Shown in pieces: positions 36,551 to 61,065 of a DNA stretch of 64,000 nt. Both the position numbers and the translations under genes were made by a program. Numbering within the stretch: position 1 is the first letter of the stretch; the number at the start of each line of letters is the position of its first letter. Origin of the DNA: Apostichopus japonicus (lineage: Eukaryota; Echinodermata; Holothuroidea; Aspidochirotida; Stichopodidae). The DNA lies in NCBI RefSeq assembly GCF_037975245.1, contig NC_092581.1, positions 20,420,303 through 20,484,302 on the forward strand, in the 5' to 3' direction. Below the pieces are notes generated by a model that was given only the letters and a program-made list of their open reading frames with translations, was not told the origin of the DNA and made no database searches.

Positions 36551-37660
36551 TCAATCACATACTCTACTTATTCAAACGTACATTATGATCTTCCCTGCCT
36601 ATTTTTGCATATGATTATAGTGACAAATTTTTGATGCCTTGGTGAAAACTATCACAATTATAATACAGATAAAATAAGTCCCAAATAATGACATTTCAGT
36701 TATAGTAGCCTCTAAAATAGTCACAAAATCTACAAAAGTCTCATAAGAACAAATATATTGTTCTCTCAATATTGCAACTTTTGATCATAATATTTGACTC
36801 CAAAACATGAAGATGAAAAACAGCTACTGTACCTACTGATGTTAGCCTCTGAAAAAAAGGCATTATCCACAAAGTGGATCTAATATACCATTCAAAAATA
36901 TTGTTCACTTAAAACCTCGACCTTTTTTCATTAGTTAGGACTTCAAATTATCGAATGAAAAAAGAAAGTACATAGTAACTGTTGGTGATATCAGCCTCTG
37001 CAATATTAAAATTGGTTGTTGTCACAATGGTACCATGAATCAAATATTGATATGGAACTTATTATAACTTAATAAACTTTGCTCAATACCTTTTTGCACA
37101 CAAGAAGAGTTTTATTAATAAGGTGGATCCTAATACCAGATGTCAAGTTCATGCAAGCTTTAATATTAGAACTAACAAGTTCACAAAGCTCAGACTTTGA
37201 CCTGTGTTGATCTTTGACCTCAAAAGAACACAATATGATATATTTATACTCAATAAGTTGGATCCATATACCAAGTATGAAGTACATCAAAGCACCTTAA
37301 TACATTAGAGCTCATAAATTTACAATTTTTCAGACATTAATTTTTACTGACAATTATCCTCCACTGAAAAATATTACTTCTGCTCATTAAGGTAGAAGCT
37401 AATGTTAGGTGTTATTGTGTTTACAAACAAGCTATCACATACATACAAGGCAAAAAAAAAAACTATCAAAAAGAAAAATTCCCTTTAAACGCTAATGGTG
37501 AATATGAGCAAGTAGAAAAAGACCAGATCCAAATGGATTTCCCCAATACAAACATTATAGTACTACATTATTTCTTGAACACAACGGTTAGTACAGGGCC
37601 GCTGTCAGAAGGTCCTTCATATATGGGGTCAGTTTCTACTCTTGATGTGATATGAGATTT
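36547..37660. other. 3' flank and possible 3' UTR of gene B
   Basis: Counterpart of 10,575-11,693, with the same reverse-strand AATAAA at about 37,112 and a GACCTTTGACCTC-type repeat (37,180-37,310). No further coding sequence is seen. Confidence 0.4.
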
Positions 37661-38364
37661 TTACTCAGGCTGATCACTCTGAGGCTGCATTGGTGGCGCT
37701 GAGGGTGACACATTGTTCAACTCTCCATTCTGTGCCACTGTCGGGTTACCCTGTTGTGGGTACAGCTCTGCTTGATTATTCTGAGGAGGGTACCCCTGAG
37801 GCACAGCAGCTGGGTATGACTGAGCAGGAACAACAGTGGGTTGTTGTGGGTATGGAGCATTAGGGAGTTGCTGTGGGTAAGGAGCATTAGTGGGTTGCTG
37901 TGGGTAGGGGGCAACAGTTGGTTGCTGTGGGTATGGGGCAACAGTTGGTTGCTGTGGGTTTGGGGCACCAGTGGGTTGCTGTGGGTATGGAGCTGCCTGT
38001 GTAGGGTAAGGAACAATGGCTGGTTGGGTTGCAGTTGGTTGTTGAGGATAGTTCTGTGGGGGATATGCTGGGTTACTCTGAGTGCCTGGTGGTGGATACT
38101 TCATAGGGCTAGACATCACTTCCTGGTATGCGGGTGGATTACCTCCCACTGCAGTTTGGGCTGTTTGACCTGATGTCGGGAGTGGTTGCATCGCAGCCAT
38201 CTGATTTGTCTGATGGGGCACCTGTTGGTGAGTCCCCGCAGCAGTTGCTGAAGATCTTGGCTGCCTTGAATTCTTTATCACAGCAGCACAGATACTACAG
38301 CAACAGACGCCGATTAAGATGACAATGATTGCAGTGACCACTATTCCAGTGACAGAAATGGATC
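37661..38364 (-). CDS. Copy B terminal exon: TM helix and proline-rich tail
   Basis: Acceptor TTCACATACAG, exon start GATCC, phase 1, giving [19 protein letters not shown]. The helix is followed by VCCCSIC and KNSRQPR. The tail contains [15 protein letters not shown]-type repeats encoded by a 27-30 bp coding minisatellite, and VSPSAPPM near the C terminus. Copy A has a differently arranged repeat block (PTQQAPVPYPIQAAPN against [16 protein letters not shown]), so the repeats have turned over in frame. The clustered cysteines at the membrane are possible palmitoylation sites. PPxY plus PSAP would suit NEDD4/ESCRT-linked sorting. This is inferred from motifs alone. Confidence 0.85.
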
Positions 38365-41300
38365 CTGTATGTGAATATATTTAATTAAGAATCTTGAAGG
38401 ATAATGCAAAGACAACCATATAATATAATCTTAACACAAAGTCTGCTTAATGCATGTGATTAACCTTGTTTCGCCATTTTTATAATTAATCAGATTTATT
38501 TTAAAGAAATATTTATTAATCGATGGTGTGTGCCGCAACAGTAACACAAATCCAATGATAGACCAGGAGCTTGTAACTGCCAATAGTTAATGGAGGAATG
38601 TTTGAAGCAGTGCAAAAGCTGAGGAATATGGATTAACCATAAACATCTACGTACTTTGCTTACTCTTATTAGTATATATTATAGTTATTGTATTTATTCT
38701 CAATTATATTTTATGTTTATCAGTGTATTTTGATGGACCAATGGTATGTATGCCACAATGGCAATTGCCAAATTTGATTATAAAAGAAACAAAACTAACA
38801 GACCTATAGTAGTCACTCACAAATGAAATATTGATTGTTGTAAACATATGGTTGACATGCGAATACGGGCAACAGTTCTACAAACGACATTAATTACAGA
38901 TGTCTGATGGCATATCATCTTCAAAAGCTTGACTTTAAATTTAATGATATTTGTCCCTTAAATGTGATGCAATTATAATGTATTTTAGAGCTTCATTATC
39001 AAATACACTTTAACTTTATATTGTTCTACTCTTTGGAAGCATGAATTATATATTATAAAGGAAAATAAAAGCAGAGGGAACCCCCTCCCAGTGGTTACTT
39101 CCCATTAAATGCATTACATATGCAGCACAAGAGTCATTTGGTAGCTAATAACCCTGGCTGAAGTTAATACCACAGATGGAGAGCAGTATTAATTTACACA
39201 GAGTCATGTGCTTGTAAGGTTTGATGACAGGGAATTGTGTGACATAATACCACAACAATGAAAGAAAAACAGAGGGACAATGTTTGTTGTTGGTAATTTA
39301 TTTTGCATGGTCACTCTAATGCTGAATTTGCATTTGTAATAGTTAACCTGATGACATCCATTTGATATTTTGACATTCGGACCTCTACTGACCCCAAAAT
39401 GACCTTTGACGGCCACCCAAAAATAATAGGGTTCTTGTACTCACTATAAGAAGGACACAAGCCAAATATATTCCATATCATATAACCTATCTTGGGATAT
39501 CCAGTTTTACAAGTTTAATATTTACAAGGCTTTTCAGAGTGTGACCTTTGATGACCTCAAACGACCTTTGACCTCCACCAAAAACAATAAGATTCTTGTA
39601 CGCATTATAGGGAAGTTGCACTCAAAATATGAAAGCCAATTAAGTTTCCTATCTGGAGATATCTTGTTTACAAGCATTTCATGTTTCAAGCCCTCATACC
39701 CTTCAATGAACTCTGACCTACATCAAATTGTATAAAATGTAAAAAAGCAATAGGGTTCTTGTAATAATTTAGAAGCCACATTGCCACATATGAGAACTGC
39801 AGAGGTTACCCATCTTAAGATATCATGTTTACAAGCTATGCATACCACACATGCACCCACACACGCCAGCACGATTGCAAAGGTTACTGAGCCTTCAACA
39901 TCGTAACCAATAAAATGATGGGTATACAGGAGATCTCGCTATAATACATAAACCCTTTGATACTCACCAATACTATCATGTGTACATTGTACTCCTATAT
40001 CTTCACTATGTGAGCAGGAACTGGTCCCCCAGTCATAGAAGTAACAATCCCTCCAGCTGTCCTCCCAACCATTGCAATCTATATCATACAGAATGGGTCC
40101 ATCTCCTTCACCATAGTAAGCACTGGATTGGTACTCCAGAGCTCCACTATAGCCAAGCTGGCGGCAGATCACATGAGCGTCTTGTAGGTCAAAATTGTCA
40201 TCGCAGATTGTTCCCCATTCGTTATTGTAATATATCTGGACGGTTCCTTCGCCTGGAGTATAACCATTAATTAGTCGTACATCTCCAGACCCTGGAATGG
40301 GTGTAGCAATAAAACATATGTACAGTATAACATACTTGATAACAAAATAAACAACTAATCAGGACATACTGATAACACATGGTACAAATTGCAGATATAC
40401 AGTATGTACTGTATATGAATGGGCTTGACATACGAACCAAAAATACAATTTTTTTTTAATATCAGTTGCATTTTGAGACATGTCAGAATTACCTTACTTC
40501 AGATACTGTCTTAACAATGTTTCCACATTTTGACAGCCCTAGCTTCTCCCCTCAAGTAACCTATGACCTCCACTGCACACAAAAGCACTTCCTTTTCTTA
40601 ATATTATGTTAAGATTTATGAGGCATCCTGAAACTAAGAATGAAAACCAGTCATGGTCACATCACAAAGTAATGGAAAGTCTCCCCACCCCCCCCCCCCC
40701 CAAAAAAAAGAAGAAACAAACAAACACAAACAAACAACCATCATGGGAACAGTGCCTAAAATATCACCTGAAGTGACTTTTTATATATTTGCAATCATCA
40801 CTTTTGTAATCAGAATACAACTGAAACTAACTGATTGTATAAAGAAGCAAGAGGATTGAAATTGACTGGAAGCTTTTTAGAACTGGGAGATTATAGTATG
40901 ACATACAGATGGCTAGGTATGCAAGCACAACATGTTAAAAACTTTGCTTTCTTGCTGAAAATCAGTGGTCATTGTATAGAAGTTTGCCAGTGCCATGACA
41001 GTCACAAACCATCACAATATTCTTTTTGGTATATCATATTAATGTAGTTTTTTTCTTCTCATATTTTGACTGAGCTGCAAAACTTTAGTGGAATTCAACT
41101 AAGTTCATTACTAATGACAGGCTTAATTAGCCACTCACAGATTGAAATATACCAACAGTTTGTAAAGCTGACAAGCTAAACATATCCAAGTAGATTGCTG
41201 TTGCAGGTTTACATAGATGGCGCTACAACCAATGCAAAGAAGAAGTGTGTGTGTACTGATATACAGAGAGTATGGCATGTGTGGCACTTACCAGTAGCTC

Positions 41301-44300
41301 CATAACATGTCAATCCAACGTCTTCGCTGTGTGTGCATCTATTCGTGTCCCAATCGTCAATGTTGCAATCCGTCCACTGCTGCTCATAGGTATATCCATA
41401 GCAGTCAATACCTGCCATAATAGGCCCAACTCCTTCACCAAAGTAAGCATTAGAATAAACATCGGAAGCTCCAGTGTAGCCAAGTTGGCGGCAAATAACG
41501 TCAGCATCTGAAGTTTCAAAACTGTCATCACAAACTGTTCCCCACTGGCCCTCATAAAAGATCTCTAGCCTTCCTTCTGATGTAGAGTATCCGTTGACAA
41601 GGCGAACATTGGTTACAGGGATAGCTGATGAAGCAGCAGATATTGATGACATTTTTTAATATTTCAAATTTGACTAATTTGGTTGTTACATTGAAAATCA
41701 ATGAAGAAGGATGAATGTAGATTTTACTTTGTAATGCTCATACCACCCACATGAGATGGACCAATTTAAGTGTAGACCCCAAAAATTACTGGTTGAGTAT
41801 TTACCAGTGACTAGCTTACCTGTCTCCTCACAACCTTAGCACTACGTTATACCATGCCTGGAATGTCCTGGTAAGCTTTTAACACAATGAGCCCTCTATG
41901 ATTGGCACCTCCGGTCATTGCCCTTCCCTCTCATGAGACCACTACCCTCCCAAAGTGGTCAATGTGGAAACATCCTAACAATGAGTCCTTAATGCCTTCT
42001 AGTGGGGGATAGGGGTCGCCCTCCAGAGCAGACGTTCCTACCCTTATCCTTACAAGAAACCTAAGACCTGATTGAAATTCCCTTAGCTTTAACCCTGTTT
42101 AAGCTTGACGCCTTAGTTTCAGTTAAGTTATACCTGTAGGAAGTAAAGTTACACTCACTGATAGACATGGTCGATGACCCTGAGTAGTTAGTCTATCATG
42201 TATAGTGTATCATTTATATCATATAGTCTATCATGTATAGTGCACAGAGTCATGAGTCTGATCCAACAACCACTCCCCAGTCTGGCTGTGTCCCGCCCCC
42301 CTCAGGGGAGGGAGGCAGGAATGGAGACAGGTAAGCTTGTCACTGGTAAATACCCAAACCAGTTAGTTTTGTGGTATTTACTTCACTCCTCGCTTACCTG
42401 TCTCCTCCCAACCTTAGCTCCAAGTGGAACTGCCCAATGATGGGAGGCCCCAGGGTTGAGACCTAGTTCCCACCAAACCTCGCATCACTGTTCTTCCAAA
42501 TGCCGCCTCAGCCTGTAAAACGTAGGATAAATAACAAAGGAACTAGTTGGTGTCTTCCATGCTGCCGCCTTGAGAATATCTTCGATCAGGATGCCAGCAA
42601 AGTATGGCAGCAGTGACTTGTATGTTCTGTTTGTATGTATTTTAGATCCTCCTGCAAGCAGAAACTTGTGAAGAAGCCATCATTCACTTATCTAAGCCGC
42701 AAGCTGACAGTCTCTTAGATTTATATTTAACGTCCATGATTATGAATTGTCCATTTTCAACAACTCTGTAACAAGACAACATACATTAATCTTGGAGTGA
42801 CTTGGACTCGGGACCATATATGGTTGAAAGGCACCAGCATTAACCATCTTCCTTGATATCAAGGGCTCTTGGTCTGGCATTTCCAGTCGCAAAGGAACCA
42901 ATCGCCTCCTCTATCCAGTGGGACAAGGTATCCTTCGATGCCACTGAGTAAGGAGCTTGCGGAAGAAAGAAGAGGGATGCTGTTGACCATCTTAGATGCT
43001 TTGTCTTGTGTAGATCTATTTACTCTGACTGGGCACCACTGCTTGGCTTGACCACTGACAAAAAAGTTTTTTTTCCCCCTCTGAGATAAAGATATCCCCT
43101 GGCAGGAAAGTATGAGCCTGGTTCTTTGCAATGAAGGATGGGTTGGGACCATCCTCACCCCATGAATCGCGAACCTGATGGAGACAGCTCCTTCTACTTG
43201 CCAATGCCACTGTGATGAGAAAAAGTGTTTTCTTAGTCAGGGCCGCCAGAGATGCAGCCGGTATTGGTTCATACAGTGGTTTCGTCAAGGCCCACAGCAC
43301 TGCTGAAAGCCCCCAAAAAGTGGATAGCCGTCTGATCTGCGGGTGCCTGTTTGCCATCCCTCTAATGAGCTGAGCGATGTCTGTATTATTCCTGGCGTGG
43401 GACCATCCGGAAAACCCTGGGGTAAAGCTGTGATGACCGACCTGTAATTCTTTATTGTCAAGACCTGCTTGCTCTCCTAAGAAAAAGGAGTGGAGGAAAT
43501 CAGCTACTGTACTTGTGGTAGGGTGGCCACTGTAAGCAGTACCTGTCTTGGTTGGCACCACTCCCCTTACTTCCGCAGGTGGGAATTATCGTAATGTCAT
43601 TCCCTTTTTAGTGTCGGCTGCCACTGCGGCAGCTGCCCCCAAAAAACCTCTCTGTCAGAGGGTAGACAGGAGACATTCCAGACAACTAACTGCAAGGCCC
43701 TTGATGTGAGTGTTCCCTGTCTCTGAGAGCAGGTGAGGTGTGTCCCGCAGGAGCGCCGGGTGTCCATGAGGAGCTGGAGGATCTCCCTGTACCGGGTCTA
43801 CGAGGCCAGAACGGGGCTTTTAGAATGAATCTGCTGTTGGAATCTTTTTCAGGACCTGGCCAATCACGCATAGTGGTGGTAAGATTTAAGCTTCCAGGAA
43901 GTCCTATGAGAGAGACATGGCATCTGTGTGATTTGCTCGTGGGTGGAACCGCCTGGCGCAGAAGGTCTGGAGTTTGCCTGTGTTGCAAATAGATCTTATC
44001 ATTGGTTTGCTAAGGATGCTGAACACTCTTTGCACATTTCCTATGCCAATGCCTTAGTTACATTTTGCTTGCCTGTGATGTGCGAGGCTCGCAGTACAGT
44101 ATCTCAAAAGACTCATCAGAGGCTGGGGGTATCTTCTTCTCTCCCTACTGTATGTCTTGTGGATCTGATCGAGAGCTCGTTTAATCAGTCTTAACATTCT
44201 ATGTAAAGATTCTCTCCTTCTTCTACTCCGTACAAGGATCTCCGTCGGAATCTGTCTCTCCGTCTTTTTTTTCACCCAGCTACACTGTATACTCTCTGGA

Positions 44301-47300
44301 ATAATTATCATAATTGGCTTAATAGCATGGACTGGGGGTAGGACAATTGATCATAGTTTCTGGGGAGGGGATATTACAATTACATCTAAGTTTCAGGAAG
44401 ATTCTCCATCTGGACAAAAAGTATTCTGTGTTTCAAATGCTATGCAGGGGGTATGACCATGTATTATGGTTGGAAGTAATTATATAGCCTAAAGTGAGGG
44501 GAAAAATGACCCCAAGATATGAAGCTGTGAAAAACTTTTCTTTGTGCATTTTCTACTTCAATCATGGAAAAATTAGACTGTTGACCCTACATTTCGTTTA
44601 GCTTGTATGTATACATGGAAGTCCCGGTCCAAAAAACACATTTAAACAAACGACAATTTGGCTGTTTAAACGTTCACATGCCGTCCAATCCCTTTTTCCT
44701 TGTGTAATAAAAAATGTGTTTCGAAACCTCCAACAGGTGCTGTTGTGCTCTATTCTGTACTCCCCCTCACCCCAATGTAGACTGTTCCATATTATCGTGT
44801 GTAAATGTGACCTATCAGTACTCGTGAATGGCTGAAGTTAGCTTTAAAAACTATAGTTGAAGGTGATAACGCAAGAAACATATCAGCGTGCCCTTTTGTT
44901 GACCTTTTGTCTGGTACAGTAAGCAACAGGTGCAGCAAGATTGTCTACAGTTAACTTGGGGTGGTAAGTTATACTCGATAAACAGTACTCAGCGGGAACT
45001 TCCTCAAGTTCGTGTGTATTATCTGGGTTGGTATATTTATTGGGTAATATTTTTACCAGATATTCAAGGTTATTTTCGGTAAATTCATTGATGACAGATC
45101 TCAATACCATTGGTATGGGTATGAAGGAAATACCTGGTAAACCTGGTATACTGTATAACGACACACCCTAGTCGTAATGTAATTAAACATAAACTAAAAA
45201 GAGCAAAGGGAGAGAAACAAAGGGAGGCGAAGTAAGCTACAGAGAGTAGATGAATGTTACGTTACCTTAAAAAAGTGCTCTCCTTAGTGGCTTGCAGATT
45301 ACAAAATATGTTACAAAAATGGTCAAACAAAACCAACCCACAAGTGGTAACAAGAGTGTGACAAGGGAGAGGGTAATGGAGAAAAACAACTATAAAAGCA
45401 TGACAACATGTGAATACAACGAATACATTTGAAAAGAAGATGAAACAATTACATGAAAATGCAATATGTATCTTCCGATAGTGTGTGTGCTAAAAAAGAG
45501 CGGGAAACTTACTAAGCAGTTCGTGGAACTGCTTCCCCCGTAACCCTATCGGAGGAAATCTAGTGCTCGGCCGCGCTTCCTCCAAAGGATCGCCACTTGT
45601 CCCACTTGAGTTTTCCTGTTCCCCGATCTGGTCTTCAGAGTTTATGTCGACCCATTAAAGCCCATTTGTTTCATTTCATAAGAAAGGAGGGATTTTAGTC
45701 TGCTTCCGTGAAGTGTTTGCTACATACGGAGCTGTATACAGGCTAGGCCCAGTGGAATCGGCGCTGGTGTTCTGCACTAACTTGGTCATAATCGCCGTGT
45801 GTTTTTGTCCTTCGGCCATAGATGAAGGCTAATTGCATGGGTAATGACATTACTGCAGCCCCAACAACACAACGGACCAGCATTTCTCCCGGATATTTTA
45901 CAACATATTGTAAAAACCTTGAAATTTCTAACAATATATACTGTATATAGCGTAATACGGTGGTTGTTCTCTCAGTGTAAATGTGCGTGTATGTGTGACC
46001 GTATGATCGTCGCGCATCCAGTACATGCCTGGCCATGGCACTTGTGTTCCTAATATGACGTCATCGTTGTCTTGTTTTGAAATCGCATTTTTCAGAGGTC
46101 TGTTTTCGGATGCGAATATTAAAACATTAATTTCAAAGTAGTCCTTGAGGTTTTGAAGGTAACAAGAATAGTTTTGAACATAGATTTTCTCGTAGATTCA
46201 GAGGAAGTTACCTCGATTAGTTGAATTTTTCATGTCATGGCCTCTTTACGACAGGACTGATGACCAGTGGTGGGATAACACAGATCAACAACATAATTGT
46301 CACCTGGACTTATTCAGTGTGGGATTAATATCCCAAAATAGCCTCACTAAGTAAAAGATTATTGGTTTCAAATTGTTGATCACTCTATGGATTAGTAGAA
46401 CATCTTTCCTGCATCAATCTTCCATTAATGAGCTACAAGGTGTGAAGCGTATTCTAGTTTGTTATTGTTATTATGACGTCACACATGGCTCGCGTTTTGG
46501 TGATTTGCTCTGTGGTGTAGTGTACTATGTGTGACGCGCTATTATGTGCGTATACAGATGTTTTGCTTTAAATGATTCGGTTTGTGGGGTTGGAAGACAG
46601 CCAAACTGGTTCAAATTGGTTGAGTGCCCATTTGCATGTGCTCATCTGCATATCAGGTTGGCACTCAACCAATCAAGAGTTGGGTGGGGGGTTAGCTGTA
46701 AGTTTAGACCAATCTGGTTCAAGGGCAGAGCGTGTGCCCTGTGCATCGCGTCGTAATTTATTATTTTGGAATGAGGGGTCTAAGTGTCTCCTAAAGACAT
46801 ATCGGTGAGTTAAAGTTTATCATCCGAAGTCTACGGACGTAGAACAGTAGGCTCCGTAGTTATATTTATTTTGTACATTTTAATTAACCAAAGTTATTGT
46901 TTTATTCAGAATCAATGAAAAAGATATATATTATCAAATATCCGCTTTTCCTGATTATTTCCTGTTTCACGCTCGGTTCGACGTTATCAGTGTAAGGCCC
47001 GACTTACCGTTCTTAGAACTATCTAAATAACAAAGGTACTAGACAACAGCACCCAAAGTATTTGAAGCATCATTCAAAGATTCACCAGACCTATTCAGCT
47101 ATGTACAGTATCACAAAGTCCTTAAGATTGCAATAAACCAACATTTTGGAGAGCCGACATGTTATAAGAATAATTATAGACAGCACATTACGGATTAACA
47201 TCTACTGTAGGCATTACAACCACTATATATACACAAACAAGAAGCATGCGTGTAAAGATATATGTATAAAGTATGGCATGTGTGGCACTTACCAGTAGCT

Positions 47301-50300
47301 TCAAGACATGTCAGTCCAACGTCTTCGTTGTGTGAGCAAATACCTGTGTCCCAATTATAAATGCTGCAATCCGTCCACTCCAGCTCATAAGATAATCCAT
47401 AGCAGTTAATACTTCCCAAAATAGGCCCAACTCCTTCACCAAAGTACGCATTAGAATGGATCTGGCTAACTCCGGTGTAGCCAAGTTGGCGGCAAATAAC
47501 GTTCCCCTCGTCAGTATCAAAACTGTCATCACAAACTGTTCCCCACTGGCCATTATACAAGATCTCTAGCCTTCCTTCTGATGTAGAGTATCCGTTGACA
47601 AGACGAACATTGGTAACAGGGTTACCTGATGAGGAAACAAATATTGATGACATTTCATTCAAATTTGGCTTATTTGGTTGTTACATTGAATTCAAATGAA
47701 CTGTTATAATAACCCAAAGGAAGATGAATAATGATTTACTTTGTACTGCATATACCAGCCACATGAGATGGACCATACTAAGTGTATATTAAGATGAGAA
47801 CACAGCATAAGGGAAGCCTCGCAAATCTAACCGCCGGTTCCGGGCCGGCGGAAATCTCGCACCCCTTGCTCATTATGCATGTGCATATTGGTCCCATGGT
47901 TGAATGCACACACGCTGGTTGCCAGCCGGAGTAATGAGCACAGCGTCCTGACAACACAAGGCTGGTTATTCTTTACAAACAATGAGCAAACTTGGCCAAG
48001 TGACCGGATTAACTTTTGCGGTTTTGACAGTCAATAGAGCGGTAGTTTATGTTGCAAAAGGACTTATACACTAAAATCCGCCACTACCAAATGTCCGAGA
48101 TTCAGTACTTTATATACTGTAATTCTTGCAAATCTTCCACGTTATCAAACCTCACAAATAAAATTTCTTGGGTCTCTTATGAACAATTGTGAAACTCCGC
48201 TACTCGAAAGTTCGATAAAAGCAGCCTTTACCTGGGCCTATACATTATGAGCCTTGTTCAACGAGTGGTACGTAACTATGAATTAAAAACTGAATCAGCC
48301 ATTGCATTAAATATATGCCCCCAAGAACTTCAGAAAACCCATATTGACAAACCAGAATTTAAACAAAACAATAGTTAAGCTATGCCACATATGTATGTTA
48401 AAGAGAGAACATCGACCGTAACGTTGATCTCTGAAGCTAACTGCGACACAAATTCAACGAATAAACAGATGGTTTAAATGCTTGATTTTCCCATTGACTT
48501 AGTGTGTTAGGCTGCCATGTGGTTAGAGATATAAGTTACTATTCGGTGAAAATGTTACTATACGTACATCAGTTTACAACTGCAGTGTTTACCCCTACTT
48601 AAACATCATCGTAGGCATACTGTACATGGGCTGCGAATTTTCCCAGGTACCTTCCAAACAACCCCCCTGTCTAACACCTGTTTGTTAACATTTTTGGCAT
48701 GTTTCCAAAAAACTTTTCATGGAGTAAACTATTTTGGCTCCACTCTAGAATTAGGTAAGTCAGTAAAGGATCGGTAAAGTTATGCAAAATATTATCTTAG
48801 ACGTTCAAGAAAAGTATATATACCCGTAACATTAAGGTAAGTAAAACACCTCAAGCCAACCGACTCCTCCGCATGAACAAAACATTCTATTCCCCATGAT
48901 ACACGAGTCTATACCATACAGACATAGCACGATATCAAGGCCCCGATAGCTACAGTATGGCTATCTTTATGAAAGTAAACCTTTTAATCCCATGTTTTAG
49001 GCCACTTGGCATGATTAACTGAATGCTAAATATTGTTTCCATGTCCTTGTAGAAAACGTCAACTTCGCAAAATACAATTAGTTGTGTTTTTGTTGTTACG
49101 TGAGATCCGTAACCGGCGAAGTGGTTAGGCTATTTACTATACACTTAACTATGGTAGGATATTAATTTTTCCTTTTTTTTTGTGGAAATTCTAGAAAATA
49201 CTTTCTTTTCCCCCCGCCAGATGTGGTCGTATGGTTTATTCATAAATGGGTGTACTAGAGCCTTGTCTACATGACATTAGTTGCATTTAGCACGATATGC
49301 CAGTTTCGCGTGAATTTTTCGAAAGTATTTTGCTCGAACTTTCGTAAAATTTGAAAGGTGTACCAACTTACTGTTCGTACACAATTGCTAATTTCTCTAC
49401 TGATTTTCAGAGTAGTAAAGGACGTTTTTTTTTTACGAAGTTCAAAAGTCAGTAAATGAAGTTGATAAACTTAATTTCTTTCAACTTTCTTAACCATGGA
49501 ATTTAGCAATTATTGTGTAAACTCATAGGCCCATATACAGTTGGAGCTCTATTTTGTGTGGGGTGGGATGGGCGAGCGATTGGGACAGTTTTCTAATGCT
49601 AATACCTCTCTAAACTGTCCTCCCATCAGTACCATGCTTCAAAGCAGATGTATTGACAGCATGAACTTTTCCTAACCTTTATCTGATAGTAAAAGGATAT
49701 TCATATACTGTACTTACAGAGTGCTGTGAATCAGGACATGAAAGTACAGTACTGTACTTATAAAATGTAGTTTGAATTGTGAAAATATATCTGGTTTGGT
49801 TCAAATTTAATTAATATGATTTTTAATGGTAGTCCAGATACTAATAATTTCATAGCTTGAGGTAAAACGAGAAAGATGAACGGTAGAATTCTGTTTACAA
49901 TCGTCAATACACACAAAAGACAAGGTGAAATACTGTACAGTAGGTTACTGTATTTCAGAACTTTATTTGACATTTATATTTTGTGCTTTTATGTCTCCGA
50001 GCTGAGCAAGTAATTTATGAAAATGGTGCAGGTTACTGGGGTTCCATTAAAAATGCATCTGGACCCCAGCTTGGGCTTTCAGATACATTCAAGAGAAATA
50101 TAGTTCCTATGTCTGAGTCTTACAAAATTACTGTGCTTTAAAATCTCAAAAAAGAAAAAAAATCTAACACCATTCAAAAGCAACAGTGTTCTTAAACTCA
50201 TTATGAGGGGCCTGCAATTTGCATCATGTACATCAACTTAAAAACTGTGCAAAGCCTTGAATTGAACTATGTATATTAGAGTATTTTTGTCAACAAGCTA

Positions 50301-53300
50301 TGAATTAAGCATTTAAGGCATATATAATATACAGTACATACTGTACAGTATGTACCCAATTGTGACTTAAAAAGATACATATGAAATGCAGTTATCCTTA
50401 TATTCCTCTTGCAACTTTCACTCTATACTGTATGTATCCCATTTCATCTTTCAAAAGCTCATGAAAGCCTAGAGTGAGTATTGCATACTTATGAATGATT
50501 CACATAAATACCTGTACTGCAGAAGACACCAGCATCTTCATTATGGTCACTATTTTCAACTCCCCAACCACTGTGAAACAACTATCTAGGCAGTTTTCTG
50601 TAGGATGTCATCAGCTTCCTAACTATGTATGACGACTCTAGTTATTTCTCTTGAAACTCTCACCCACTGAAGTTTGAGCTAACCTCAGCCATGCCTATAA
50701 TGTTCCATCCCACCTCCCAAAATCTCACAAAGTGCTATGGTGGGTGGTTAATGCATCCATATGAAATGTTTCCACTTTACCTATACTGCAGCGGACACCA
50801 GCATCTTCATTATGGGCACAATTATGAACTCCCCATCCTCTGTGAGAACAACTGTCTAAGCGGCTTTCGTAACCAGAGCAAGAGACTTCATCCAGCCAGA
50901 TTTCTCCATCGCCTTGACCAAATGGAGGAGTGTCTTCAGCATCTCCTAGTCCAAGCTGACGACAGACAACGTTTGCATCAATTAAAGTCCAACCATCATC
51001 ACAAACAGTTCCCCAGCTACCATCGTAGTATATTTCAACTCTACCCTCGTATGTTGATCCGTCCTGTAGTCGCAAGTCACCATTACCTGAAAGGGACAGC
51101 ATGTAACTTTACAAAAACTTGCAGATTCGGAAGCAAAGTGTACAGCACGTTAAACAAATGCAGCTGTTGACAGATTAAAAGGACAGTCCAAGTGAACATT
51201 TATTTTTCGACTGTTGAAAGAGAAACATAGTGTAAAAGCATCCTCGTGAAATCATTGTGATATTTTTATATAATTGCATTGTCATATTTATGCCATTGAA
51301 ACAAACAGGAGTGACGTCATTGTTGCACATGTTTAAGTTTTCAATCTATTGTTTTTAATTTAGATTGCACTGGATTCTGAACAACTTTTTCTATGAGAAT
51401 GTGAATTTACAAATAGACACATTGGCTATACAGTAGTTTTCATATTGTGATGATGCATCCCAATGTAAATGGGTGACTTTTTGCACGAAATAAATTTGGT
51501 TGTAGACTGTCAAACACACTTTCCTCTCAGTTTAGAGTGACTGAGTTTCAATGTTTCGTCTAATTCTTGAGAAATGACCCTTTCAAAATTTGAAGCTCAT
51601 CTGTGGAAGTAGCTGGACTATTAAGACTAACACACATACCATCAATGAAAGTGCCTGGACTACTAAGACTAACACACAGACCATCAATGAAAGTGGTTGG
51701 ACTACTAAGACTTACACATCCACCATGAATGAAAGTGGCTGGACTACTAAGTCTAACACACAGACCATCAATGAAAGTGGCTGGACTACTGTACTAAACT
51801 TACACACAGACCATCAGTGAAAGTAGCTAGACTACTGTCAAACACACAGACCATCAATGAAAGTGGCTGGACTACCTAAGTCTAACACAGACCATCAATG
51901 AAAGTGGCCGGACTACTAGGACTAACACACCCTCTAGTTAATATGAAGTTTAAAGGATATGTTTTGGTTGAAGGTACAGTAATACAATTAATTAAAAAAC
52001 AGATTGACATTAACAGGAATTCACTGAGAATCTGACATTATCATCATTTTAATAGCTTTAATTCCAGAGTTTTAGCTAATTGAAAGCTGAAAGTCTTAAC
52101 AACATGAATTTTGAAACATTAATAGCACTCCAATTTGTCCTTTGGTTTACGACATATCAAGATTAAACTTATGACTAAAGTCATCATTAAAAGTCAGTAC
52201 ATTTTGAAGAAAAACATACAACACTGTCAATTGTGTTTCTGTGACATCAAACATGTTTGCATTAATACTTCACTGAAAATCAAAAATCAAATAAAAAACT
52301 CTTCAAATTCAAATCAATTTTCAACTGCACTATCCTATCACCTCTGAATATGTTTGCTGAGTTCACCTGTAAGGTAGTATTGTACCTTTCTTGGATTGTG
52401 TTAATTATTAAGCATAAATCAATCAATCAATCTTTCTTTATTTATTTATCTGTCAGTCTGTCTGTCAGTATGTCTGTTTGTCAGCCAGTCAGTCAGCCTA
52501 TCTATCTGTCTGTCAGTCAGTCAGTCAGCCAGTCTGTCTGTCTGTCTGTCTGTCTGTCAGTCAGCCAGTCTGTCTGTCTGTCAGCCAGTCAGTCTATCTA
52601 TCTATCTGTCTTTCTGCCAGCCAGTCAGCCGGTCTATCTGTCAGCCAGCCAGTCAGCTGGTCAGTTTATTTGTCTGTCTGTCTATCCATTATGTTAAAAC
52701 AAAAAACTGTAGAGTTGAAGATTGCCCTTGCTGCAGCTACTGTAGGCTGAATCATTATCACCAATAGAGATCTGTATATACTGTACATGTAGAAAAGTGC
52801 TCAGTGTCTTTTGTGTGAAGCTGCACAAGTGCTGTAGATGTCAATTTATTCACTGACAACTACAGTACCATATTGCAATCATTTTTGTTTTTTTTCGGTG
52901 CTGAAAGCTTTCCTTCTGTAACCACATTATTAAGAGGTTATTCTTTTTCACAGGAATAAACCCTGTGGTAAAGAATCAGCAAAATTAAAGACATTTTTTG
53001 AAACAAGGTACAGTAACAGTCCGGAGACGTTGCAGCCATGCTGTGTAAACAAAGATCTTCTACATGAAATACATGGTCTACACTGTGTCATGAATGCATT
53101 GCCACAAACCTCCAAATGTAATACACACCAACAACTGTGCATAGATGCATGCTCTTGCACGTGACCTGCCAAACTCCAATTAAACAGAACAGAACGAGAG
53201 GTACGTGACATGCTGAAATTCTATTCATAACGACTTTATTAATATGTGCCATACACAGTACTGTATGTATGTCAATAAACACAGTTAACAATATTGAAAT

Positions 53301-54109
53301 CATCCTTTGATTCAAACTGCCTAGTTACTGTTGTCAAGTGTTCTTGGGTGTACAGTGTTACGCTATGGAGACCAGTTTCTGTTTACAAAACATTATATCC
53401 TGATGGAGTGTCTCTTGACCTCTTTATAAGTTAGTTTAATTTTCTCATTCTCTACCAATGGGTTAATTCCTGTGGAAAAGAATGACTGTACTGTAGGTAT
53501 ACCTCATCATAATGATGTGATCATAGGGAACAGTCAACACTGTGAAGAATGATTGAGGCAGCCATGATTGGCAATCCTTTGTGTGTCTTTATGGAATGCA
53601 TGACAATTACGACCTTTAAAGCTAAATGTGCTGGTTTGTGGCGTAACATGGTATTCATCTTTGGAATACGACAGTAATCAAGTAAAATTCCTGTCAGCCT
53701 TTATCCGCTACATTAGTTTTCCTGGCATAGTTTTCGTACATTAGTTTTCCTGACATAATCATGGACATCAAATATGAATGTAAGAGACTGACTTCGGTCA
53801 GTTTGCGGCTTTGATAAGCCAACGAGGCCTCTTCGCGAGTTCCTGCTTTCAGGAGGATCTAAAATACATGCATACATACATACATAAATTGCAAATGAAG
53901 GTTCATTCCAATAGCAGTGTTCTGTTTGTCTGTCCTAATGTGCAGTTGTAGAAGCTCCACAGTGTACAGGTATAATTTGCTACCACATCCACTCATGCAT
54001 ACTGTACTTGACCGTCCCACTTACCTTGACCGAGAGCACAGCTAAAAATATGACTCAGCAATATCACTTTCAAGAATATCATTATCTTCATGACTCCCTT
54101 TAATTCCAT
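37661..54109 (-). CDS. SRCR-domain transmembrane receptor, copy B (six exons, intact)
   Basis: Exons on the minus strand: 54,109-54,025, 51,086-50,781, 47,625-47,293, 41,624-41,292, 40,291-39,968, 38,364-37,661. The total is 2,085 nt, or 694 residues. Every junction is phase 1 with AG acceptors and GTAAGT, GTAAAG or GTGAGT donors. The product is a type I membrane protein: signal peptide 1-28, four group A SRCR domains (about 29-130, 131-241, 242-352, 353-460), TM about 463-490 and a Pro/Gln-rich tail to 694. The tail has PPAY (537-540) and PSAP (681-684). SRCR receptors bind microbial or host ligands, and the SRCR families of sea urchins are expanded and linked to immunity. The ligand and tissue are not visible here. 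No gene name is assigned because SRCR multigene families cannot be matched one to one. Confidence 0.85.
38365..39967. other. Last intron of gene B
   Basis: 1.6 kb without the hAT element found in copy A. The empty target CTTGGGAT is at 39,491-39,498. GACCTTTGACCTC repeats lie at 39,370-39,480 and 39,535-39,730. Confidence 0.6.
39968..40291 (-). CDS. Copy B SRCR domain exon (SRCR4)
   Basis: 324 nt, acceptor CACCCATTCCAG, donor TATTG|GTGAGT. Domain: [69 protein letters not shown]. Six cysteines. Against copy A most nucleotide differences change the amino acid. Confidence 0.85.
40292..41291. other. Intron between SRCR3 and SRCR4, copy B
   Basis: Non-coding counterpart of 17,176-18,180. It has a poly-C run at 40,686-40,701. 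Confidence 0.5.
41292..41624 (-). CDS. Copy B SRCR domain exon (SRCR3)
   Basis: 333 nt, acceptor TGCTGCTTCATCAG, donor GCTACTG|GTAAGT. Domain: [65 protein letters not shown]. It is closest to SRCR2 in the same gene, including flanking intron sequence, so the two arose by exon duplication. Confidence 0.85.
41805..44320 (-). mobile_element. DIRS-like retrotransposon remnant, copy B
   Basis: Minus-strand frame 43,561-43,016 reads [12 protein letters not shown], then [20 protein letters not shown], then [28 protein letters not shown], and SFIAKNQ. This is the order and wording of DIRS tyrosine recombinases. The frame breaks, then WCPVRV follows in another frame. Upstream (43,988-43,686) APFWPRRP resembles the end of the DIRS RNase H region. 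Sequences CTTACCTGTCTCCTC in both orientations (41,815-42,410) may be the inverted and internal complementary repeats of such elements. Frameshifts make it non-functional. No reverse transcriptase core was found. Confidence 0.65.
42617..42855 (-). mobile_element. tRNA-derived SINE inside the DIRS remnant, copy B
   Basis: Counterpart of 19,531-19,770, with the tail at the low-coordinate end and a degraded head near GGCACCAGCATTAACC. Confidence 0.65.
44321..47292. other. Intron between SRCR2 and SRCR3, copy B only
   Basis: Deleted from copy A. It includes a moderately GC-richer stretch (45,500-45,660) with the inverted repeat AAGCAGTTC-GTG-GAACTGCTT, and an octamer/CCAAT dyad at 46,615-46,673. 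No coding exon was recognised. An alternative promoter is possible but unsupported. Confidence 0.4.
46615..46673. promoter_or_regulatory. Dyad with CCAAT arms around an ATTTGCAT octamer
   Basis: A 14-bp perfect inverted repeat, ATTGGTTGAGTGCC (46,615-46,628) and GGCACTCAACCAAT (46,660-46,673), flanks a 31-base loop. The loop contains ATTTGCAT (46,630-46,637) and ATCTGCATAT. Octamer plus CCAAT boxes are promoter-like, but there is no TATA or transcript evidence. Confidence 0.25.
47293..47625 (-). CDS. Copy B SRCR domain exon (SRCR2)
   Basis: 333 nt, acceptor GTTTCCTCATCAG, donor GCTACTG|GTAAGT. Domain: [75 protein letters not shown]. Six cysteines. The exon is missing from copy A owing to the 7.7 kb deletion. 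Confidence 0.85.
47626..50510. other. Intron between SRCR1 and SRCR2, left part
   Basis: Copy B only. 47,821-47,960 is GC-richer with ATGCATGTGCATATTGG. 48,440-48,540 and 48,640-48,670 resemble parts of the hAT element of copy A (CCCATTGACTTAGTGTG, TACCTTCCAAACAAC). TACWGTA words are dense after 49,680. No exon was found. Confidence 0.4.
50511..50610 (-). pseudogene. Decayed 3' half of a second SRCR1-like exon
   Basis: Minus-strand sequence aligns with the end of SRCR1: CLDSC, a one-base deletion, then [19 protein letters not shown] before a GTATTT in place of the donor. The C-terminal motif cysteine of NCAHNEDAG is replaced (NSDHNEDAG). The 5' part of the exon is not recognisable. It lies about 170 bases downstream of SRCR1 in gene orientation. 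Confidence 0.7.
50781..51086 (-). CDS. Copy B SRCR domain exon (SRCR1)
   Basis: 306 nt, acceptor TGTCCCTTTCAG, donor AGTATAG|GTAAAG. Domain: [78 protein letters not shown]. Complete with six group A cysteines. More diverged from SRCR2-4 than those are from each other. Confidence 0.88.
51600..51930. repeat. 42-bp minisatellite
   Basis: About eight units of GAAAGTGGCTGGACTACTAA followed by GACTAACACACAGACCATCAAT. Copy A has about three to four units (20,425-20,570). Because 42 is a multiple of 3, one frame stays open, but it is not a gene. Confidence 0.9.
52442..52684. repeat. (CTGT/CAGT)n microsatellite, copy B
   Basis: Tetramer-rich tract matching 20,838-21,137. Confidence 0.95.
53759..53886 (+). 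mobile_element. SINE 3' portion, copy B
   Basis: Counterpart of 22,350-22,479, including the (ACAT)n tail. Confidence 0.65.
54025..54109 (-). CDS. Copy B signal-peptide exon
   Basis: ATG at 54,109 gives [18 protein letters not shown] then [10 protein letters not shown], a secretory signal. The donor is GTCAAG|GTAAGT, phase 1. Two conservative changes distinguish it within the first ten residues from copy A. The sequence just upstream (AGTATACAGTACAGTAG) carries two TACAGTA additions absent from copy A. Confidence 0.8.
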
Positions 54110-56506
54110 CAGTATACAGTACAGTAGTAACTCACCGACTGAAAAGGAAGAAGAAGCACAAAAAATATAAAAATAAAAACTAACTGACTGAGTGGCTGGC
54201 TGAGTGATGCCTCACCAATATTTTGTATGAGAAAGCATTCCTTGCCCTACAGTAACATGAACAGTAGGATGTTCATCTGTAAAGCTGAGCTTTCTGATAC
54301 TTATAATTTTCACTAAACTTTTACCTACTGTACATGTTGACTTCTCATGACCTTTGAACTTAGGAATAGGGCTCTTATATTCAATAAGGTGGTGGATCTA
54401 CAGTACATTCCAAGTACTGTATGAATGAAATCCAACATGGACAAAATAATGCACCATCGCATCCATTCCTCTTGCCTCAAAATCAATGGCAGCCCATTTT
54501 GGCTATACATTATGACTATCAAACCAAAATGGAATATACTTTTATTTGATCAACCCTACTGTACAGTACATTAGCTGCTTGTTTAACACAGCATAGACTA
54601 TGTTATACATCAATTGAAGACCAAAATTGCGTGCCGCCCTCTGAAAAAGTTAACTTTCTGTTGCTTGCAAGTGAAGTTGTTTTCTTAATCCTACAAAATG
54701 CAGACAGTAATGAAACGTGATACCTTGTTATCTTTAATCTGGATCTGAGTCCATTGCTGCTACTGTGTTGTGGGTATTGACCATACAGTAGCTGGAAGCT
54801 GCATGTATTGACTGTACACTAGGGTCTAATACTGACAGTAGCAAGCTGTGTGTATATTTTCTGGGACTGATGGTGGTGTCTAACACTTCTGTTACACCTC
54901 ATTCGAAACTAGGTCAGATGACTGGCATCAGAGGTTTCTTTGTGCGCGAGTCTTCACTCCCTTTTTAAAAGTGAACACTCCCAATGAGACAGTGTTCTGT
55001 GTGTACTAGTATACAGCTGTTTACTTGATATGAAATGGCACCAAATGCATAACAATAGATTGTGGGCGTATGTATTGAGTCAAATTACAAAACGAAATTC
55101 CTTTAGGTGCTGAATCATCTGAGGCATGACAGTGCAATACAATACCTATAGCCACCTGCCAAAGTGCTTGTCTATACAGTATATACTGTACGTTAAATTT
55201 TATTTTATTTTCAATATCATGGTATTGCAGACTTGCTAATGGTAAATTGAGAATTGAGCTGCATTAAAGTGCTTCAAAAATATAAACAAATACGAAAGAC
55301 TTGGTTTGATTTCTACCAGAGTTTCTTCACATCTCAAAGTGCTTCATAATATTCAAATTTGAAAGACTTGAATTAATCCCTACCAGAGTTTTGTTCACAT
55401 CTCAAAAATTGGAAACTAGTTTTTTCAACTAAATCAATAGAAATTATTGATTAATTTTGTTCATGAAATTATTGATTAATTTTGTTCATGCATGTGTAAA
55501 GCATTTGCACACACAAAACATATGACTGACTAAGTAGTATACTTTTATACACGTATAACACTCATCTTATGGTAGCATAAAGTACAGTGTATTTTGACAT
55601 TCTCTTCCTGGGGAGGGATTTAGTGGTTGAAAGCTTAAACCAGAGTAAAAGGTTTCGATTGTCACTCTTTATTAATACATTACATGAACAGTACTATGGT
55701 ACCACCAGTTAAAGCAAAAAAAAAAACCTATCAATTTCAAAGTAACAGTCAACTGTAATGTATACAAAGGTCTTTGAACATGTAAAGTTCACAGTACTTA
55801 CTGTGTATGCTAATTACTGTTGTATTTTGTACTAGTTATGAACGTTCAGCCTAGTTAACCTAGGTGCCTAGGCGAACAATACTAAGAAAGAAATTTAATC
55901 AATGAAACACTTGAAATGCCATACGATGCAAACACAGAACACGCACACCTTAATAGCACTTACAATGTTCTCGATTTCAAGAAAGTTTTATGAAATATTG
56001 ACTATAGAAGACAGGAGACTGAAGCCAATATATATACTGTAGATATTTCTTCGTGGTCATTTTGCTAATTAGAGAGCTAAAAGAGATTGCATAGATCCCA
56101 CCCTCCCCCCCCCCCCCCCTTTATGCAAGAAATATGATTGCTCAAGTATGGGTACATTGGTCAATCTTGCACAGCTTTCCCACAATGCCATTGGAATCTG
56201 AGTTGCCAAATGTCAGCAAGTACTGTACAGTAGGAACAGGAAGCCAGAGGGCAATGTGATTTCTTGCCTTCAAAGGTTTACACACATTCACCAGATAGGC
56301 AACTGATTCAATGGCTACAGGTTACAAAGTCCAGAACCAAAACATTCCAAGAGTTTCAGTTACATTATAAAATTTGCTCAAAATTCCACATAACTATCTG
56401 ACATTTGTAGAGCAAGTGAGTTAAATTTGTCCAAGAATTAAGTGAGAACCTGAAAAGATCAGAGTTGTCCATCTCATTTATTCACTCACTTGTGGGCAGC
56501 AAAGAA

Positions 56507-56740
56507 TTATTTCAGTGGTACGAAAGGAATTTACAGTATAGAATTTTTATTCCAAAATGTTTAATTATTCAGAAAGAGTGCACAGTCTTCCTATCTAGAG
56601 ATGAAAAATAAACACACAGATGTTATTTCAGTAGTACTGTAAAGGAATTTACAGTATAGAATTTTTATTCCAAAATGTTTAATTATTCAGAAAGAGTGCA
56701 CAGTCTTCCTATCTAGAGATGAAAAATAAACACACAGATT
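56507..56740. repeat. 116-bp tandem duplication
   Basis: TTATTTCAGT to CACACAGAT is present twice (from 56,507 and from 56,623). Copy A has one unit near 24,416. Confidence 0.85.
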
Positions 56741-57718
56741 CTCAACATATTGAGCAAATGGACATTTTCTTTTACCAATTTTATGCTATTGTTATTAAGG
56801 AATTGAGAGTTACAAGCCATTGTTATAACAGTGCTGTGAAATATTTTCACAACATGCTGCCAAAGTCATCTGGTATGAATCACTGAGAATATGGCCAATT
56901 TTGAGACTGTATGAGATATAACCTGGTTTACCCTTGGAGCCAAGTTTTGACCAGTTGAGATAACTTGCTCTGAGCCCTTGAAGCTCAGAGCTGTGAAAAC
57001 TGATGTGGATCACTTGAATGTGTTTACAGCAGTAAACATAAGATTATCAAGTAATATTTCATTTCCCAAATAACTATATTTATATCGTTGAACATCACTT
57101 GAGATTTATGTTATGTTGAGTCCATTCACAAAACTAAACTGACCTGGACAAAACTATGTTCACCAAAAGACAATTATAGCATTGGAGAACTCACAGATTA
57201 CTTGTAGCTTTCATTGGAGCTATCATGTTGACAAGGATTACAAACTGTTACACATGTTGACCCCATTTGACCTCTACCAATTTTGATAGGGATCTTGCAC
57301 TCACCATGCTGGATCTACTAAGTAAGTATCAAATCCCACAAATATGTGCATTTTGAGTTATCATGTTTACAACGTTTTCAGACTTTGACCTCTGCTGACC
57401 ATGAATGACCTTTAAACTTCACAAAAATGGAAATTGTTCTTATAACTCAATAAGATGGATCCACATACCTAGTACAGTAGGAAGTTAATTCCACCATGAA
57501 CTTAAAGGTAATGAACTTGAGTGATGTTGTCTACAAGCAAGAGTACATACAGTATGCTTGTCCATAGGTTCCATGGATAACAGCTAACACTACGGCCATC
57601 TTGAATAGCAAAGCCATTTCTGTGTCGGTTCTGTGTCTGTGCATATACTGTACAGTAGCTTTTACTGAAGGAATGCTTATATCGCAGTCTATCGCAGGTA
57701 AGAACTCATGTGTTTAAG

Positions 57719-57966
57719 GAGTGTTAGCTCAGTGGTTAACGCGGGTGCCTTTCAATCATAAAGTCCAGAGTTCGAGTCACACCAAGATTAATGTATGTCG
57801 TCCAGTTACAGAGTTGTTGACAATTGTCGATTCGTAATCATGGACGTTAAAATATGAATCTAAGAGACTGACTTCGTTCAGCTTGCGGCTTCGATAAGCC
57901 AATAATGGCTTCTTCGTGAGTTCCTGCTTGTAGGAGGGTCTAAAAAACGTACATGTACATACATTA
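57719..57966 (+). mobile_element. Full-length tRNA-derived SINE
   Basis: The head has A box TTAGCTCAGTGG (57,724-57,735) and B box GAGTTCGAGTC (57,769-57,779) at tRNA-like spacing. It is followed by a hairpin-rich core (GACTTCGTTCAGC, GGCTTCGATAAGCC, GAGTTCCTGC) and an ACAT-rich tail. The anticodon arm does not fold as a functional tRNA, so this is the best-preserved SINE member here and not a tRNA gene. Confidence 0.75.
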
Positions 57967-60900
57967 TCACAGAACTGATCCAGTATGGCATCGCAAACTG
58001 CTATGCATAATGGTCAAATTGTTATAAGTTCAAAGATGCATAGCAGTGTTTAAACATAGTATTTTAGTGTTAGGCCTATAACTAATTGATCTTTACTACA
58101 CATCTTATTACCTATGCCTCGGTTATACAGTACTGTATGTGAATATAATGTCAGTACTTGTGAAATCATTGCATCTTGCAACTACTGTAAGCCATGCTAG
58201 TGTACAACTGAAGTTTGGGTTAGGAAAGCTATTCCTGGCCTAAGGAGAGTCAAGATAATCTTTTAGTATACATACATGTATATATACTGTTTAAGTGTTT
58301 ATATACTGTTTATAGCAACTCTTCTGAGACCTCATGAAAAGGCTCACATTACAACATCAGAGGCCAATAGTTATATCAACCCGCCCAGACTAATAAGGGC
58401 ATGACAATCAATAATATACGCTAGGTTAGTCTTGCAATGAAATAAATCAAAAACTTGTTGATCTGTGATCTGTTGATTGAGTGATCTTTGGAGTTTGGAG
58501 ACCATCTGCTATGGTCGATCGATGCTGTAATGAACATTGCAAAATCAGTAATGATCAGTCCTACATCCAAAACAATATATTGATTGTAGCTTACCTGAAG
58601 ATGTACATGTTACTGTCTGTTGATATGGTGCAGCATAGGACTGTAACCCAGCATAACTAAGGCCTAGCCTGGGCTGCCGGTAATGCACTGAGTACAGTCT
58701 GTAGGTTTTGGTAAAGTTTGACAATCCTAGCCTGGCCTACCATTAGTAATTCATAGTAGTTCATGCTGGTTTGGGGTTTTGTGAACTTATCCTTTGAGTG
58801 AACTTCCATACCAGACATAAATCAAAGTGTCCAAAATGTCATTTAGTGATCCTACGTAGCATAGGCTTTAGTCTGACTTTAATAATATACACCTAGGCCT
58901 AGCCAAGACTGGCAAAGGGCTATGTTAGGCCTTACGCTCACCAAAATTTATAGAAGCCACTTCCAGCTTGTCCCTTGCAACAAATTGAAGACCAACAACT
59001 CAAACAAAAGTGTTAACCTACATTGCTTTTTTACGTAGTCTCCATGTTAGACAATGAAGTACAGTACCCAGATATAGTAAAGGCTGTATAATTAAAGCAC
59101 GTACGTAATTGACGCACCTTAAAATATTACTAGCAACGATACAGCAGGCAACCTAAACTTTTCAAGCTGATCAGAGTCACATATTTTTTAAGCTTAATTG
59201 AATCCATTTCAGGTATGTACTGATCAAATTGTGTTTTTTTAAAGCTTTGAACACTTCCCCCCCCCTCCCCACAAGTTTTGCAAGGATTTTGGTATTTGGA
59301 AGTCTAGCTTACTCCCTAAAATTAACCAAAATTACCTCAGTATGAATTATGATACCACTAGCTCTTTGGGACCTGACCTATCTGAGCTTGGAGGCTCAGC
59401 ATAGCAAACAGCATCTATAGTCAATTGATGATACCTATTTAGTTAGCTTAAATCGATGTGTCAGTTTTGGATTATAAAAGAACTATAGACATGACAGACA
59501 TTTTGTGGCCAAATTCTGCTTAATTGCACAAAGCATACAGTTAAGATTGATTTGGATTTTTCCTTGATAGTTGATCAATTCCTTAAGTGTGTCATTATGA
59601 GCCCACCATGCTACTCCTAATTGCATATTAAGAAGCCTAAGATTTAACACAACAGAGGCCTTGTTGTAAGCCTAGGCTACCTTCCAAGCAAATGATGATG
59701 AGATTAAAGTGTTTGTGGTAAATCATGTATGCATCCTTTTTGAGGTAAAGAAGGGATAAATTGTATTTCATGACAACTTAAAGATTACCGTAAGTATGTT
59801 GTCACCATGCATCACCAAAGGCATCTTAGAGTTAACAATATTTGAAGAGTAATTTACAAAATGAAACAATATAATATATTACAGAAAAAGAGACTACTTG
59901 TAATGTTAACTGTAGACAACAATGTACCTTGGAAGACTGCTAAATTAGCTGCAATACACATTTATAGGCATACAGGCTGTAGGCCTGCATTAATATTCAA
60001 TAACGACATGAACGTTGTAAAAAATAGGAACAGCATGCCAATCATTAATAAAGCGACATATTCTTTAAAAGCCTATAGGCTTAACCATTTTTTTTTTGGA
60101 TCAAGTGCATCCAGTGTTTCTCTATTTGAAAATGTAAAATATTGTTACGCTAAGATTAGAATTCCGTCGAAACCTCGTTATAACGTAGGCACCCTTTGCG
60201 CGAGTCAATGTTTTGGGTGTAACCAGACGGCGCGATCAACCTTGCAAAGCGTATTGATGTGGCTTCTATGTATAATTTCTGTGCTTAGGCTACGTAACGA
60301 TAGACTACGTGTTAGGCTTTGTAAACTAGCCTGGCTTATGGATTTCCGTGAACGTACCTTGCAAAGAATCAAAAGAAGTTGTCCAATAACTTCACTTATT
60401 GATATGAACTGTATGTAAGATCGCGTACAAATACTATAACTAGTTACAGATATTCAACACTTTCATATCTGTTGTACAGTATTAAATAGTAGCTGAACTT
60501 CTGAAGTAATACTCATGACTCAGCGGAAACCAGCAACGTTCATTCTTGGTATACGGCCACACGAAAAGGGAAAATCCCGCAGAAAGGTAGACTATACAAT
60601 TATAGGTATGACTATGTACCCAATAGAATCATAGGGGTGCGGAGTTGTACACTACTCTCCCCTTTCAACCTCACACAATAATTCAAAGCAGTTACTGTTA
60701 CGACCGTGCATTTAGTCATATAGTGCGAGGGTGGGGCTGCGGGGCACAGTTGATCATGGGGCACAGTGAATCACTTCATATAATTTAAAAGAAATAGATT
60801 ATGTATAGTGCCATCTAATTTACCTTCACACTAAAGCCATTACCCACAGAAAAATTACCAGTGTAGCTGCAGTACCAAAAAACTTTGGAAGCATTTATTG

Positions 60901-61065
60901 TTTTTCATTGTCTATGTGTAAATTGTTGCTGCTCATCATCCAAGCGGAAGCTAGTCACTTCGCCCAACAACCATTTCGCCCAAATTGCCATTTAGACCAA
61001 CCTTACCATTTCGCCCAACCTTGTTGGTCATTTCGCCCAACCAGCATGGTCATTTCGCCCGAAAA

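Follow-up and report, generated by a model that had tools for sequence, protein, structure and literature searches.

Dense TACWGTA words in a tandem duplication of Apostichopus japonicus as probable excision footprints of a Tc1/mariner-type transposon

A stretch of 64,000 nucleotides from the holothurian Apostichopus japonicus (C21:20420303-20484302; here called the window) holds a large tandem duplication, one arm of which is crowded with the words TACAGTA and TACTGTA, together TACWGTA. What process placed them there, and why so unevenly? A preliminary description of this DNA had ascribed the words to excision of Tc1/mariner-type transposons, and had put their number at about 45 between positions 49600 and 60700, where composition would predict two or three. 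We counted 46 (24 with CAG and 22 with CTG) against an order-1 simulated expectation of 2.97 (sd 1.6); at orders 3 and 4 the expectation is 8.1 (sd 2.5) and 18.2 (sd 4.1), values that are inflated by the TACWGTA words themselves. TACWGTA is the most frequent strand-merged 7-mer of the interval. The interval named earlier is word-dense, but the dense block is in fact wider, extending over 43150-60700 with 57 words (3.25/kb), 46 of which fall within 49600-60700. Its density is 7.7 times the mean of the assembly (671,581,487 bases in 35 contigs, the basis of all genome-wide counts given here). Elsewhere in the window, the 5 words in 1-16000 and the 6 in 30000-43149 slightly exceed order-1 expectations of 2.8 and 2.3.

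The duplicated units, 1-29016 and 30027-61038, include exons for SRCR domains (PF00530 matched 6 of the 10 frames tested), and are about 99% identical at the left, a value that drops to about 84-87% on the right side. Their left halves are 90-99% identical, as if homogenised or more recently duplicated. The right halves, copy A (20048-29016) and copy B (50848-61038), are 84-87% identical in their longest segments and 78-94% over all. Some 30 kb upstream of A there is a third copy, A0, which differs from A by one visible substitution over 421 bases read. Copy A carries 11 words in 9.0 kb, against an order-1 expectation of 2.3, and copy B carries 36. The density of 49600-60700 is 3.4 times that of copy A, close to the earlier estimate of about a dozen words in A and some four times more in B, and the excess of scars, as we term these words, in B over A is real.

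We sorted the words of both copies by eye from the A/B alignment. Twelve of the 36 B words, at 10 sites, are gains relative to a word-free A site; 10 are also present in A, whether identical, differing by a single substitution or carrying the alternative middle base. Of the remainder, 6 fall within complex gaps, 1 is set apart by substitutions alone, and 7 have no A counterpart. Among the 11 A words, 7 are shared with B, 3 lack a usable B counterpart, and the sole A-only word (27356) sits within a complex 11-base gap. One-sided sites accordingly number 10 in B and 0 clean ones in A (p 0.002). Six of the B-only sites are exact 5-base gaps. These are TACAGTA at 52861-52867 and at 57473-57479, each facing TA in A; TACTGTA at 54000-54006, facing TA in A and an empty A0; TACTGTA at 52738-52744, with A empty; and TACAGTA at 53009-53015 and TACTGTA at 58183-58189, where A is also without the TA. 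The double scar TACAGTACAGTA at 54115-54126 faces TA in both A and A0 across an exact gap of 10 bases. Three sites show further changes: TACAGTA at 54399-54405 (A and A0 empty; an 8-base gap made of the scar and 3 bases nearby), TACAGTA at 54784-54790 within a high-copy repeat (A empty; a 12-base gap, CAGTA plus GCTGGAA), and the double scar TACAGTACTGTA at 58126-58137 (A empty, reading TATATA; an 8-base gap). The four aligned pairs that had been quoted beforehand (52861, 52738, 58126/58131 and 54399) are all real, although the gaps at 54399 and 58126 are of 8 bases and not the bare 5 or 10 implied. When all 5-base insertions in the alignment are considered, 6 of 10 in B consist of CWGTA added at a TA (a script picked out four, inspection by eye two), compared with 0 of 5 in A.

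Similar differences occur outside the right halves. TACTGTA at 47203-47209, near an SRCR exon, is matched in the paralogue at about 18.1 kb by a clean gap of 5 bases and is also missing, less cleanly, from the SRCR paralogue at about 41.2 kb; a copy A word at 19132 has no word opposite in the other unit. Other words are common to both copies: TACTGTA at 53489-53495 (22068 in A), 54326-54332 (22882), 54415-54421 (22963) and 55184-55190 (23769), the double TACTGTACAGTA at 56221-56232 (24128-24139), and a further TACTGTACAGTA at 54557-54568 whose A version differs by one substitution. The word shared at 53489 and 22068 is older than the A/B split. In an all-against-all comparison of 304 kb, 4 of 36 5-base gaps were of the scar class, every one of them from the A/B pair of the window.

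Copies A and A0 are nearly identical and have a common empty state, which means that the direction of these changes cannot be read from A against B alone. An outgroup is available for the scar at 54784, which lies in a repeat copy of about 340 bases at 54613-54964 (query part 1924-2275); the genome yielded 4293 first-look candidates for this repeat, 40 of which were scored. Both exact flanks of the TA of 54784 were found at 72 places. Sixty-eight of these are empty, A and A0 included; two have an extra TA, one has CTGTA (a copy on C10 that aligns along the repeat), and B itself has CAGTA with 7 further bases. Another TA of the repeat (ATGTA) was found at 442 places, and among the 100 listed, 97 are plain, one has CAGTA, one has an extra TA and one has 7 bases at a non-TA control gap. 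A genome-wide search at this TA for any TA-NNN-TA form yielded 2 places; each has CAG, and one was already among the 100. CWGTA is therefore present at a TA in four different repeat copies, counting B, which was itself selected for carrying it, and no insertion besides CWGTA and TA slips was seen among the TA gaps listed in repeat copies. Given the empty state of nearly all repeat copies at the same TA, these CWGTA words are gains, and independent hits have occurred at one and the same TA. The change from TA to TACWGTA, by gain of CAGTA or CTGTA, is documented at the 10 B-only sites and in repeat copies on C10, C5 and C11.

The word is also over-represented at large. TACWGTA occurs 361,456 times in the genome, against 75,078 for the control word TAGWCTA. 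Twenty random 10-kb samples contained 86 words where 42 were expected at order 2, 49 at order 4 and 71 at order 5, the higher-order expectations including the halves of TACWGTA itself. The genome-wide count is about 2.0-2.6 times the order-2 expectation which, scaled from the 200-kb sample, amounts to about 141,000 and leaves an excess of about 220,000. Words are unevenly spread among the samples (variance/mean 2.5, p 3e-4), and other TANNNTA words vary too (3.0). A genome-wide excess unrelated to insertions or deletions had been named beforehand as an observation at odds with excision; an excess is present, but TA insertions account for it wherever this can be checked.

We conclude that most of the excess TACWGTA in the block very probably consists of germline excision footprints of a CAG-ended, Sleeping Beauty-like Tc1/mariner transposon, as the preliminary description had proposed; the donor element itself is inferred and was not observed. 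This reading is supported by the TA position of the gains, the balance of the two forms, the A..TA..T context of the block and the gains polarised by the repeat. CWGTA at a TA is the product predicted by a 3-nucleotide stagger on a CAG-ended Tc1/mariner element, as published for Sleeping Beauty, and the footprint is of a known kind. By analogy with that published case, an element would insert at TA and duplicate it, and on excision the transposase would cut the non-transferred strand 3 nucleotides in from either end, so that both flanks keep a 3′ overhang reading CAG. Between the two overhangs, C:G and G:C pairs could form on either side of an A:A mismatch, and joining of the ends would then yield TA-CAG-TA or TA-CTG-TA about equally often. 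The two forms are indeed about equal, 24:22 in 49600-60700, a balance expected if the A:A mismatch of the two overhangs is resolved either way.

Flanking bases of the scars are also biased. After removal of 16 nested words and one duplicate, 40 of the 57 words in 43150-60700 were left. They had A at -3 or T at +3 in 43 of 80 flanks, where 1328 TAs gave a frequency of 0.317 (p 3.6e-5) and 115 further TANNNTA words one of 0.343 (p 2.9e-4). T at -1 or A at +1 was depleted, at 9 of 80 against 0.307 for TAs (p 3.8e-5) and 0.248 for the other TANNNTA words (p 2.1e-3). In copy A together with the sequence to its left, the non-nested scars, some of them common to B, had A-3 or T+3 in 18 of 28 flanks. 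In its sequence, the A..TA..T bias of the block resembles the target of a Tc1-type transposase.

Several observations weigh against excision as the source. The flank statistic was picked after the flank table had been viewed, and the bias is weak in the 200-kb random sample (A-3 0.384 vs 0.354, p 0.23); the three densest samples, chosen afterwards, gave 0.47 (p 0.035). Genome-wide, ANNTACWGTANNT accounts for 51,473 of the 361,456 words, or 14.2%, compared with 14.0% of sampled TAs and 10.9% of other sampled TANNNTA words, a figure from which nothing is concluded. The genome-wide excess shrinks as the order of the model rises. In the repeat, the TA next to that of 54784 (GGGTA) carried a scar in 0 of 48 places and an extra TA in 1. 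Overlapping pairs raise a further difficulty. The exact gain of 10 bases at 54115-54126 agrees with the proposal of scars within scars and shows that two scars can stack, but among the nine overlapping pairs of the window, two of which are one site in A and B (8 independent), 7 of the 8 are in opposite orientation and 1 in the same (one-sided p about 0.035, by hand), where random nesting would give both equally. Nor does excision by itself account for the difference in scar number between B and A, which lie 31 kb from each other; germline chromatin that is open at B, or local hops by a resident element since lost, are guesses as to what lies behind the hot block and the surplus in B.

A donor has likewise escaped our searches. 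In the window, TA-flanked CAG...CTG pairs up to 4 kb apart gave ten candidates at 13-15/20 matches, none convincing, in a search run without a control; in the preliminary description, too, no intact Tc1 element was seen. The 200-kb sample contained no CAG-ended, TA-flanked inverted repeats at 16/24, and at 13/20 it gave 2 CAG-ended pairs, while other ends gave 0-1 apart from CAC (9) and CAT (14). No CAG-ended, TA-flanked donor was thus found in the window and the 200 kb searched. Tc1-type DDE transposases are present in the genome, with 45 matches to PF13358. Six matches that do not belong to a family typified by an array on C9 have open frames of 335-363 aa; no match could be tied to the scars, and the two best Tc1-like candidates have no clear ends. 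Of 25 matches to PF01498, 16 lie in that one array (C9:37375216-37464220), whose tandem units of about 5.7 kb each contain a PF01498/PF13358 frame of 384 aa or less; nine loci were read. A 229-aa frame within C9:37412000-37419000 adjoins this transposase array and may be Rep protein-like. Within the window, a 129-bp inverted repeat beside the TACAGTA at 5406 was set aside: by eye it resembles a foldback element ending in TTAA, not one with CAG ends. The segments at about 5424-5590 and 6421-6530 are palindromic and foldback-like, with TTAA-like ends (TTAATCAACGGTC... / ...GACCGTTGATTAA).

Could the words have arisen without a transposon? A composition or short-repeat effect would make this simply a TACAGTA-rich genome, fed for instance by pentanucleotide arrays, with B as a drifted region. 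The genome-wide excess is in keeping with such an effect, as is an array at C1:39335-39886, possibly a microsatellite, in which 5-base units (ACATT/ACAGT/ACAAT/ACTGT) build dozens of TACWGTA words; TACAGTACTGTA occurs 2239 times in the genome, against 105 for the reversed word, partly in pentanucleotide arrays and at least six times inside this one. We nevertheless regard the effect as a very unlikely source of the block, since it cannot make 5-base gaps at TA in one paralogue or in single repeat copies, and the 86 words of the twenty random samples include no overlapping double, which argues that the sample background is not built of arrays.

The differences could also be losses, B retaining old TACWGTA words and A having shed them by 5-base deletions between TAs. 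The TA...TA direct repeat could mediate such deletions, and the emptiness of both A and A0 counts for little against them, the two being nearly identical. For 54784, however, the 68 empty places out of 72 make B the derived state and show loss to be wrong; SRCR paralogues are without the word at 47203, and the presence of 46 words where about 3 are expected would go unexplained. As a general account we consider loss very unlikely. Finally, repair or recombination might add CWGTA at TA by short insertion with no transposon involved, and both the lack of a donor in the window or the 200 kb and the 7 of 8 doubles in opposite orientation lean that way. This we find barely credible, given that the product, the balanced forms and the target bias match known excision chemistry and that Tc1-like transposase genes with long open frames are present in the genome.

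If the excision reading is extended beyond the block, the genome may preserve traces of heritable excisions, on the order of 200,000 in number, by a nearly vanished CAG-ended Tc1/mariner family, a ghost transposon. We put this forward tentatively and think it more doubtful than not. The number is the difference between 361,456 and about 141,000, which is rough and part of which is perhaps not scars. Excision would have far exceeded retention, breaks would have been end-joined in the germline, and scars would have accumulated in hot blocks. Retained copies are the usual measure of cut-and-paste activity. If scars are countable, past excisions of which no other trace survives can be tallied from one assembly, and target bias, local hot spots and the germline repair route become readable as well. 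Excision further accounts for 5-base indels of one class that distinguish duplicated genes and would otherwise be taken for noise. Among titles and the openings of abstracts we found no published genome count of natural TACWGTA scars, although one may exist in print.

Known systems offer partial parallels. For Sleeping Beauty, a Tc1-like element, excision sites are given as TAC[A/T]GTA (PMC3432063) and the footprint is termed a characteristic CAG (PMC8151067); the word, the TA target and both middle bases are as described here. That element is known and was mobilised deliberately, whereas ours is unseen and its scars are natural and heritable and reach a very high density in one block. ZB of zebrafish is described as using a palindromic AT target, ATATATAT, reportedly common to SB and Bari (PMC7913693), to which the A..TA..T of the block may be compared; this AT-rich palindromic feature is present in the block and weak in the 200-kb sample. 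The same account gives ZB footprints of zero to three bases in a cell assay, in contrast to the words here, whose uniformity follows from the choice of TACWGTA as the criterion. Tc1 of Caenorhabditis elegans belongs to the same superfamily as the element proposed here, and its somatic excision sites are reported to be made by end joining (PMC13148408). The typical somatic footprint is there given as +4, and germline repair as mainly homologous recombination that restores the element, whereas heritable scars in A. japonicus would imply end joining in the germline. In Asian and African rice, comparison of two genomes was used to separate mariner insertions from excisions (PMC4423477), much as we compared two sequences; insertions are reported to outnumber excisions there by 2.6-2.8 to 1 in abundant families, while the parts of this genome that were read show excisions alone.

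Other features of the window may be noted briefly. Rfam (gathering threshold) and ARAGORN found nothing in it. A 19-mer of a window repeat matched five viral contigs that otherwise have no similarity to the window. Three 5-base gains at TA, each facing a 5-base gap in the other copy, are not of the CWGTA type: CGGTA in A (22238-22244, TACGGTA), CCGTA in B (59786-59792, TACCGTA) and GGCTA in A (27704-27710, TAGGCTA). With one case each, they hint at possible sister families with GGC or CGG ends behind TACSGTA and TAGGCTA gains. In the 200 kb from 20 random loci, TAGGCCTA occurs 36 times against 2.5 expected and TAGSCTA 40 times against 12.7 (order 2); in 1-61900 of the window, TAGGCCTA occurs 12 times against 0.8 expected. 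The segment 61939-64000 consists of 137-bp tandem repeat units with a higher period of 413 bp and continues past the end of the window.

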